46,281 nucleotides of DNA, taken from positions 1 to 46,281 of the forward strand of contig NZ_JAGGQU010000048.1 in NCBI RefSeq assembly GCF_018613155.1, given 5' to 3'. Positions within the stretch are counted from its first letter, which is position 1, and every line of letters starts with the position of its first letter. This document shows positions 1 through 40,220 of this stretch, in pieces. The notes below the pieces were generated by a model. That model saw only the letters and a list, made by a program, of their open reading frames with translations, did not search any database and was not told where the DNA came from. Position numbers and translations under genes: made by a program. The DNA comes from Bacillus sp. ISL-55. Its GTDB lineage: Bacteria > Bacillota > Bacilli > Bacillales > Cytobacillaceae.

Positions 1-150
1 CCGCTTTCTAGTCTACATCCACCAATAAGAGCTATTGGTGTCCAAAAACAGCAGAAAAAAGAAAAACAGGCCACCAATAAGGTCTATTGGTGCCCAAAAA
101 CAGCAGAAAAGAGAAAAACAGGTCACCAATAAGCACCCTTGGGACCCGCA
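1..150. repeat. Tandem 52-bp hairpin repeat array (array 1, left-truncated)
   Basis: Two full units and a decayed third begin at 20, 72 and 124, an exact 52-bp period. Each full unit opens with a perfect 8-bp inverted repeat (CACCAATA, 5-nt loop, TATTGGTG) followed by a purine-rich spacer of about 31 nt containing CAAAAACAGCAGAAAA. The third unit keeps the left stem but loses the right. The array may extend beyond the window's left edge. It lies just upstream of the acyl-CoA synthetase. It is not CRISPR: the whole unit repeats and there are no unique spacers. Confidence 0.85.
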
Positions 151-9874: not shown

Positions 9875-10172
9875 AAGTAACTTGCTACTCCACAAGATGT
9901 ATAAAAAATCATCCATTATAAACTTTGCCGCGGTACAATTTCCACTTGACCATTTTTAAACCTAAACGACACAAGCCCTACCTCTCTTGTATCCTTACGG
10001 CTCCGAAGCCGATCCAGTGTGAATAAGTTGATACCTAAAAATAAAAAGCAGAACGCCATTAATTGTTTACATAATTATAGTTGTGATTCAAGTTACTTCT
10101 TTTTGGCGAAGCTTTATCATTATATGATATTTTCCAGCAGCTGTCAATCGTTTTTACAAAAAGTTGAAATCC
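9875..10172. other. Intergenic region without recognised gene
   Basis: About 300 bp between the kinase terminator and the spore-protein stop codon. It contains only an ORF of 62 codons starting in a GTG with no ribosome site and low-complexity, cysteine-rich translation, which I reject. No conserved RNA or clear terminator for the minus-strand spore gene is seen. Confidence 0.5.
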
Positions 10173-15010: not shown

Positions 15011-15130
15011 CATTTATGTAGGGCCTTGCACTCACATAAGGGTCCGTTCTCTTCGATAGATACCCTTATGTATGGCGGTGCACCATCATAAGGGTCCCGT
15101 TCTCCTCGAAAAAGACCCCTAAATTCGGAT
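15011..15130. repeat. Tandem 52-bp hairpin repeat (array 4, about two units)
   Basis: CATAAGGGTC recurs at 15035 and 15087, exactly 52 bp apart, and the flanking TTATGTA-x-GGC-x-x-TGCAC block also recurs 52 bp apart (about 15014 and 15066). The first unit contains a perfect 10-bp inverted repeat, ACATAAGGGT and ACCCTTATGT, with an 18-nt loop; the second has an imperfect version (TAAGGGTC / GACCCCTA). It lies between the terminators of convergent yfhJ and yfhP. A 78-codon minus-strand frame over it is not credible as a gene. Confidence 0.75.
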
Positions 15131-30081: not shown

Positions 30082-30149
30082 GTCTATTAGAATGGAATTC
30101 CACTTATTCAGGAATTATTGAAGGATTCTTGAACTGGAGGAATATATTC

Positions 30150-30570
30150 AATTCGAGCTTGTAGAATCTGTCTATGAGCCCATTTTCATGATTTGATTTC
30201 AATTTGGGCTTATAGAATCTTTCTATGAGCCCATTTTCATGAACAAACCTCAATTTGGGCTTATAGAATCTGTCTATGAGCCCTTTTTTATGATTTGACC
30301 TCAATTTGGGCTTGTAGAATCTGTCTATGAGCCCATTTTCATGATTAGACCTCAATTCGGGCTTATAGAATCCTGTCTATGAGCCCTTTTTTATGATTAG
30401 ACCTCAATTTGGGCTTATAGAATCTGTCTATGAGCCCATTTTCATGATTAGACCTCAATTCGGGCTTATAGAATCCTGTCTATGAGCCCTTTTTCTCGAT
30501 TAGACCTCAATTCGGGCTTATGTCTATGAGCCCTTTTTCTTGATCAGACCGGAATTCAGGCTTATAAAAT
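30150..30570. repeat. Tandem 51-52-bp hairpin repeat array (array 2, eight units)
   Basis: TCTATGAGCCC recurs at 30171, 30222, 30273, 30324, 30376, 30427, 30479 and 30523: periods 51, 51, 51, 52, 51, 52, then 44 where 8 bases are deleted from the last unit. Each unit holds a hairpin, GGGCTTATAGA, 5-nt loop, TCTATGAGCCC (11 bp with one G-T pair), and a spacer containing TCATGATT and CCTCAATT. A degenerate ninth unit trails to 30570. The array fills the gap between the gltB terminator and the ygaE promoter. A minus-strand frame of 17-residue repeats over part of it is a by-product of 51 being divisible by 3. Confidence 0.9.
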
Positions 30571-30663
30571 CTTCATGAATTACTTTTTCCAGAGCGCATC
30601 GAACGATAATCTAATAATGATTCACTGGAGGCTCCTTACTAAGAATCCTACTAAGAAAAATTA

Positions 30664-39740: not shown

Positions 39741-39777
39741 AGAAAGACCGCAGCCATAAACGTGCTGCGGTCTTTCT
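39741..39777 (+). terminator. Terminator of the ABC-2 operon
   Basis: Perfect 14-bp stem AGAAAGACCGCAGC / GCTGCGGTCTTTCT with a 9-nt loop. Confidence 0.9.
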
Positions 39778-39796: not shown

Positions 39797-40220
39797 TTCA
39801 GACAGGTTTTGGCTTGGAAGAGGAAAAGCTGTCAAAAGAAGGGGGAACTTCAGACAGGTATGATGCCAAACAGAGAAAAGCTGTCAGAAGAAAGGGTAAC
39901 TTCAGACAGGTTTGATGCCACACGGAGAAAAGCTGTCAAAAGTAGGGGGAACTTCGGACAAGTTTAATGCCAAACGGAGAAAATCTGTCAAAAGAAGGTT
40001 CAACTTCAGACAGGTTTGTTGCCAAAAGGAGAAAAGCTGTCAAAAGAACGTTCAACTTCAGACAGGTTTGACGCCAAACGGAGAAAAGTTGTCAAAAGAA
40101 CGTTCAACTTCAGACAGGTTTGATGCCAAACGGAGAAAAGCTGTCAAAAGAGAGGTCAACTTCAGCCAGGTTTGGGCTTAAAAGAGGAAAAGCTGTCACA
40201 AGTAAGGTTGACTTCGGGCG
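39797..40220. repeat. Tandem 52-bp hairpin repeat array (array 3, eight to nine units)
   Basis: TTCAGACAGG or a variant starts at 39797, 39849, 39901, 39953, 40005, 40057, 40109, 40161 and (decayed) 40213: the period is exactly 52 bp eight times running. Each unit contains GACAG ... CTGTC enclosing an inner GTTTG-ATGC-CAAAC hairpin and GGAGAAAAG, followed by CAAAAGAA and, in central units, the palindrome GAACGTTC. Central units are the most alike and outer ones more diverged. It lies after the ABC-2 terminator and before the channel gene. Because 52 is not a multiple of 3 the open frame across it is not a repeat protein. Confidence 0.92.

Follow-up and report, generated by a model that had tools for sequence, protein, structure and literature searches.

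MIRU-type and other minisatellites are intergenic tandem repeats of around 50 bp, and plasmid iterons are directly repeated protein-binding sites at helical pitch. Most similar to the arrays analyzed here are the REP/BIME elements. In one paper (PMC3733652), REPs are described as clusters of small palindromic units that are found where genes converge or run in the same direction, mostly downstream of coding regions, and the jobs proposed for them in print are supercoiling, termination and mRNA stability; by analogy, these jobs would be natural candidates for the arrays of ~52-bp units described below.

Four such arrays, A to D (Table 1), are located in the window, that is, the whole stretch of 46,281 nucleotides analyzed here, and they belong to a single class of chromosomal repeats that extends across the order. 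Like REP/BIME elements, the units of which measure 20-40 bp, the arrays consist of extragenic palindromic units (27 bp) in high copy, which rarely occur in divergent gaps (1/149 in the 1.65-Mb sample described below). Unlike REP/BIME elements, the units are arranged in direct tandem at a fixed pitch of 51-53 bp and in up to 37 copies, several families share one geometry in one genome, the arrays are polar with respect to replication, and there are hardly any solitary units. Furthermore, the TGTC/GACA core lies inside the stem, whereas REPs carry an unpaired tag (GTAG or CGTC), and no common end tag was apparent by eye in the register alignment. The arrays differ from MIRU-type minisatellites in that there are hundreds of them, in several families, with one pitch and geometry; from iterons, in that they are spread evenly from origin to terminus rather than located at one origin, with a unit of five helical turns rather than two; and from CRISPR arrays, in that whole units, spacers included, are repeated, with no Cas domain detected in the ten window proteins scanned. 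The pattern is real and strong and, apparently, undescribed: no published description of such arrays was found in the open-licence PMC literature, which is no proof of novelty. The arrays can be regarded as a variant of extragenic palindromic repeats.

Table 1. Repeat arrays and associated features in the window
Feature	Position	Strand	Structure	Remarks
Array C	19..133	+	~2.2 units of 52 bp	Family CACCAAT/GGTGCCC
Array D	15011..15130	+	Two diverged units 52 bp apart	Family CCCTTATG..CATAAGGG; 53 bp elsewhere
Array B	30148..30572	-	8.4 units of 51 bp	Family GGGCTCATAG..CTATAAGCCC on - strand
Terminator-like hairpin and T tail of the upstream ABC-2 transporter gene	39745..39776	+		Precedes array A; by reading
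Array A	39797..40220	+	~8 units of 52 bp	Family GACAGG..GCTGTC
Half-site pair, one array A unit	39801..39833	+	GACA 39801-39804 and TGTC 39830-39833; outer span 33 bp	
Segment of array A detected by Tandem Repeats Finder	39823..40215	+	7.6 copies, period 52	Six inner units like other loci's arrays

The spacing of ~52 bp, noticed earlier from the sequence alone, was recovered by Tandem Repeats Finder for arrays A, B and C (periods 52, 51/103 and 52, respectively); array D was not reported even at score 30 and was recognized by reading, from CCCTTATG motifs in its two units. The gap orthologous to array D in the relative G009 holds 9 copies with a period of 53. The genes flanking the arrays have ordinary products (AMP-binding enzyme, YdjM-like membrane protein, aromatic acid exporter-like protein, glutamate synthase, ABC-2 transporter and ion channel), so that the arrays cannot be linked to any single gene function. 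In the genome that carries the window (4.52 Mb in 69 contigs, the window being contig C43), 69, 15, 27 and 3 matches to arrays A, B, C and D were found, each array itself included, where one array can account for several matches and positions 1-150 served as the query for array C. By array content, the nearest named relatives are Mesobacillus boroniphilus, M. selenatarsenatis and strains labelled Bacillus or Cytobacillus, from which we infer that the genome is of Mesobacillus type.

To place the four arrays in a genomic context, tandem repeats were analyzed in 1,646,281 bases, comprising the window, 400 kb of its own genome (contigs C11 and C32, picked for size) and evenly spaced samples of G009 (800 kb) and G019 (400 kb). 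A period of 51-53 bp was found in 70 of the 141 merged tandem arrays with a period of at least 9, and the coincidence of periods on which the earlier note had remarked is not a matter of chance. The lack of a peak at 51-52 bp, which the note had named as refuting its idea, was thus not observed in this sample of three genomes. The period of 52 alone accounted for 56 arrays, 51 and 53 for seven each, and 50 and 54 for one each; no array had a period of 55-87, and the next commonest group, with periods of 20-21 bp, comprised 30 arrays. The arrays make up 1.8% of the sample and roughly one tenth of what lies outside called genes (30,278 bp, versus 291,743 bp of other intergenic DNA), and they are distributed evenly between origin and terminus (8, 7, 14, 9 and 10 arrays in five bins of 12 windows each). 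A second intergenic class is formed by AT-rich arrays with periods of 20-21 and 41 (TCGCCAATAAAA, TTCAGGAATATA; for example, C11:209706-209817 and L308 89-383), which occupy gaps holding 50-54-bp arrays in other species.

The pitch is held tightly. Exactly 52 bp separate the units in 277 of 334 spacings, and higher-order periods of 104 and 156 are present. Family B is a 51-bp family, and family D is a 53-bp family elsewhere. Family A is found in 19 of the 21 genomes of the genus, own included, and in none of 20 genomes outside it. Three genus members with no or one match to family A (G002, G008 and G014; 380 kb) yielded three 52-bp arrays of other families, found in G002 and G014, with none in G008. 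Outside the genus, samples of 281 kb and 400 kb contained one and three arrays of period 52 (G034 and G024, respectively) and one of 54. In the arrays of G034, the pitch of 52 is kept even though the inner spacings are 17 and 27, rather than 19 and 25. In G024, a genome of another genus in the same family, a 52-bp array at L277 13876-15786 reaches 37 copies.

Each unit is built of two inverted half-sites, most commonly in the form TGTC-N19-GACA-N25. The inverted repeats described earlier in each unit are borne out by the finding that the dyad beats the best of 15 shuffles in 58 of the 72 sample arrays with a period of 50-54; in 53 of the 72, the dyad score also lies above all of 30 shuffles. 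When the array consensuses were turned to the leading sense and set on the dyad, the families fell into one register, with half-sites such as TTCAGACAGGTTT, TCTATCGGACA, ATGACGGACA, AATGGACATTTT, ATTGGTGACC and ATAAGCCCG sharing a core (GACA, GCCC or GACC) at one place and with D (ACCC) as the outlier. The axis was chosen to maximize complementarity, so that the complementarity profile near the core arises partly by construction, which does not apply to the shared letters. Thus, the earlier statement that the arrays have no sequence in common is correct as far as ordinary similarity goes, but families set in register have a half-site core in common, and seemingly unrelated repeat families can prove to be one class once aligned in this manner. 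The earlier proposal that length and phasing are under selection, or that one copying mechanism generates all four arrays, is supported in part: the length is indeed held far tighter than the sequence, but the arrays are not unrelated, and common descent, as indicated by the shared core and register, explains part of the shared length.

Counts of the core at different spacings in the 1.65 Mb gave the same geometry. TGTC-N19-GACA occurs 365 times (median for other spacings, 23), GACA-N25-TGTC 389 times (median, 25) and TGTC-N48-TGTC 380 times, versus 21. Units outside arrays are nearly absent, with 349 of the 365 TGTC-N19-GACA occurrences located in arrays, 8 in genes and 8 elsewhere. In arrays with a dyad score of 7 or more, the change per base is 0.035 in the arms and 0.139 in the spacers. 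Stem covariation within arrays proved unusable as evidence for a hairpin, with only 1 of 9 double changes being of the Watson-Crick type (4127 cells). Avoidance of the dyad in genes was also considered and dropped: the 8 occurrences in genes compare with ~19-29 for neighbouring spacings, but the codon-phase expectation is 11.9 (P 0.16). Likewise set aside was intrinsic curvature, with z >1.64 in 27 of 72 arrays; it was given little weight because the null, in which bases were permuted within the unit, did not keep dinucleotides.

The half-sites bear some likeness to those of Tn3/gamma-delta res. The res of the F plasmid has half-sites with outer TGTC, TGTCTGTTA..TTAATAGACA and ..ATATCGGACA, to which the family F half-sites TGTCCGATAGA and TGTCCGTTAGA are close by eye (TGTCYGWTA-like), whereas families A, B, C and D deviate. 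Moreover, the complete TGTC..GACA subsite of the F-plasmid res spans 34 bp, compared with 27 bp for the array dyad, and res consists of three unequal subsites next to a resolvase gene, in contrast to the long arrays of uniform 27-bp dyads on a 52-bp pitch. The likeness of family F to res may be taken as a lead only.

The pattern TGTC-N19-GACA-N25-TGTC-N19-GACA, which covers one and a half units, is present in 69 of 397 genomes and in 30 of the 135 genera of the order, and the reversed control pattern was matched once, in one genome (G013). The load is very uneven between genera, with 615 places in the own genome, 454 in G088, 436 in G330, 208 in G235 and 184 in G032. Because other cores or inner spacings are missed, 69 genomes is a lower bound for the occurrence of 52-bp arrays; G034 scores 1 despite the arrays of pitch 52 sampled from it. 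In 34 stretches from 17 other genomes, selected among the matches listed, the arms beyond TGTC/GACA differ widely, yet remain complementary. Arm pair 8/20 is complementary in 61 of 68 dyads (22.6 with shuffled partners), with all four pair types represented, arm pair 9/19 in 64 of 68 (38.4 with shuffled partners), and position 5 is C or T in all 68. Over pairs 5-11, G.T and A.C occur 32 and 31 times, respectively, and such a lack of preference is as expected of a symmetric duplex site.

With respect to genes, 66 of the 72 arrays of period 50-54 could be classed (6 lie at sample edges), considering gaps of at least 100 bp and using a simple gene caller of our own. Convergent gaps carry arrays in 28 of 82 cases, and divergent gaps in 1 of 149 (Fisher p 1.6e-13); among co-directional gaps, those on the lagging strand are not avoided (3/59, versus 34/456 on the leading strand; p 0.79). 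No array of the 72 in the 1.65-Mb sample lies inside a called gene. In the set fetched by the exact pattern of family A, 15 of 63 classed arrays are in divergent gaps, although some of these apparently represent one locus sampled in related strains. The earlier note had placed all four arrays outside the terminators of the flanking genes. For the sample, this was mostly borne out: a terminator-like hairpin lies between gene and array for 55 of the 80 facing gene 3' ends at least 30 bp away, but in 13 of 93 cases the gap between stop codon and array is <30 bp.

Family A shows a fixed polarity to replication, and the pooled families do so more weakly. Among the matches listed for the complete genomes G009 and G019, the termini of which were set by GC skew, 31 of 32 and 35 of 35 family A loci, respectively, run with replication; array A itself is oriented with replication, as inferred from GC skew. 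In named relatives, the orientation of family A agrees with GC skew, the array excluded, at 71 of 75 loci and with the gene majority at 63 of 75, and three of the four arrays running against co-directional neighbours follow GC skew; transcription was rejected as the main cause of orientation. Of 352 pairs of homologous arrays from the pooled families, 278 show the greater similarity when compared in the same sense and 69 when compared in opposite senses, with 5 ties. Purines account for 0.602 of the leading strand in arrays and for 0.512 in other intergenic DNA. Family D is without polarity (8 to 9), and array B, flanked by two minus-strand genes, runs against replication polarity and opposite to most arrays in the sample.

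The content of orthologous gaps turns over. The gap behind the ABC-2 transporter gene, which holds family A in the own genome, G009, G005, G006 and G001, contains 18 copies of family D in G011, a 21-bp array in G002 and a degenerate 52-bp array of another family in G003 (autocorrelation 0.44 at 52); one A-like remnant was recognized by reading in G007, and none in G008. In the gap of array D, family D is present in the own genome and G009, three other 52-bp types occupy it in G003, G006 and G001, and no array is found in G007 or G008. The gap of array B holds family B in the own genome, G005 and G006, a single B-like unit in G007 (by reading), a 20/21-bp array in G003 and a 41-bp array in G001; in G009, there are TTCAGGAATATA-like stretches by reading and no array by Tandem Repeats Finder. 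Within array A of the own genome, the first and last units best match units of the orthologous gaps (0.79 versus 0.70 and 0.76 versus 0.70), whereas the six inner units best match arrays at other loci (0.79-0.85 versus 0.70-0.73). The set from other loci is larger and hence favoured, but the end units still go the other way; judging from these similarities, the interior of array A looks as if it had been replaced by ectopic recombination. That length and orientation are kept while the sequence turns over offers a handle on the purpose of bacterial intergenic repeats.

As the best explanation, which we put forward tentatively and at somewhat less than even confidence, the repeats would be helically phased arrays of dimer sites for a putative DNA-binding protein, placed as REP/BIME elements are and kept in register by recombination. 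A symmetric DNA-binding protein, or paralogues with drifting specificity, would bind the 27-bp dyads, and, with a unit of five helical turns, dimers bound to neighbouring units would share one face of the DNA, yielding a cooperative lattice of some 3-16 dimers at perhaps ~200 places per chromosome, a figure extrapolated from 72 arrays in 1.65 Mb. The arrays occupy transcription-poor space behind genes, evenly from origin to terminus; as the higher-order periods and the mosaic in the gap of array A suggest, they may grow and shrink by unequal exchange between units, and overwriting by arrays elsewhere could keep all families on one pitch. The likely job would be at the level of the chromosome, in topology or folding behind transcription units, as proposed for REP/BIME. 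The slow change of the arms, the kept pitch and the symmetric changes without G.T preference fit a symmetric protein on duplex DNA better than RNA. Against a lattice speak the possibility that descent and register-keeping recombination could hold the length without selection for phase, the G.T excess in Mesobacillus, which hints at a single-strand hairpin, the near absence of compensatory double changes inside arrays, a polar T-rich stretch behind the dyad not needed by a plain dimer site, and the lack of site avoidance in genes after control for codon phase, as well as family D without polarity, the reversed array B and the 15 of 63 divergent arrays in the pattern-selected set. No candidate for the binding protein emerged, and no resolvase-like ORF was found among 4000 ORFs (2 Mb, a minor part of the genomes). 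Hairpin-driven expansion, terminator arrays and RAYT-moved REPs are less well supported than phased dimer-site arrays.

The strongest competitor, although a doubtful one, is that the arrays are non-functional or selfish: hairpins on the lagging-strand template would cause slippage or template switching, such that a unit is multiplied in one orientation only, with all families derived from one ancestral 52-bp unit and exchange keeping the register. Such expansion is consistent with the near-absolute replication polarity, the periods of 104 and 156, the presence, absence and replacement of families at orthologous gaps, and the very uneven load between genera. It could also account for the changes in Mesobacillus arms, where G.T outnumbers A.C by 60 unique events to 36 in the leading sense, whose letters are those of the lagging-strand template (p 6e-4 if 0.447 is expected, as in spacers; the per-site unique-event rates would put the expectation at ~0.48 and weaken the result). 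However, expansion provides no reason for a pitch of 52 when the inner spacing changes, as in G034, or for arms changing fourfold slower than spacers, single units outside arrays are almost missing, and the G.T preference is not seen in other genera. A bolder form of the protein-bound lattice appears slightly more doubtful than selfish expansion. It would consist of roughly a hundred or more phased arrays of dimer sites per chromosome, polar to replication, in many Bacillales, bound by a domesticated recombinase-like protein of co-evolving specificity; despite turnover of the sites between loci, pitch and polarity would remain constant, in a chromosome-organizing system so far undescribed.

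Less probable again is that the arrays are tandem weak intrinsic terminators halting transcription head-on to replication. Family B units do resemble intrinsic terminators, with a stem of 11-13 pairs, a loop and a T tail, and the plus strand of array B has eight terminator-like hairpins (9 in the region, one being the neighbour gene's own; 0.8 in shuffles). In addition, convergent gaps are richest in arrays, and the 9 bases behind the 27-bp dyad contain more T in the lagging sense (4.17) than in the leading sense (2.83), a polarity seen in 38 arrays against 9, of 53. By the same rule, however, array A has no terminator-like site; the scan also reported none at the hairpin preceding it, the 9-base loop of which falls outside the rule. 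Folding energies of the 27-mers are weak and alike on both strands (-9.1 and -7.9), most of the facing gene ends already have a terminator-like hairpin, the G.T excess is on the wrong sense and absent in other genera, and terminators have no need for a tandem 52-bp pitch.

Movement of REP-like elements by a RAYT-type (Y1) transposase is improbable. REPs of the GTAG type have a cognate RAYT gene flanked by their units. The placement is the same as that of REPs, and the own genome encodes three Y1_Tnp proteins, one of RAYT-like length; yet no 52-bp unit lies near the three Y1 genes (flanks of 2.8-3 kb or less each, in this one genome), units are almost never solitary, and no match of A was found in phage or plasmid collections, nor of B in plasmids. 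Carriage by mobile elements was rejected, and the RAYT and resolvase checks revealed no link in the stretches searched. The RAYT-like Y1 transposase (268 aa; L311 1554-2360) has no palindromic units in its short flanks.

Transcribed RNA with serial hairpins, one of the options in the earlier note and here placed in 3' untranslated regions, is the least credible reading: the placement at gene 3' ends and the few short gaps behind stop codons are compatible with it, but most arrays lie beyond terminators, family A arrays lack terminator-like sites, orientation tracks GC skew better than gene direction, G.T and A.C are balanced in the 17 other genomes, and no Rfam family reached the gathering threshold in the arrays of the window or in a further 140 kb of loci with arrays.

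Elsewhere in the window, positions 9956-10044 match the BsrC small RNA family of Rfam (64.4 bits; gathering score, 38). Many family A arrays of the Mesobacillus type are found in records (L100, L112 and other loci) with the title Chryseobacterium sp. ISL-80, which probably names the wrong organism.
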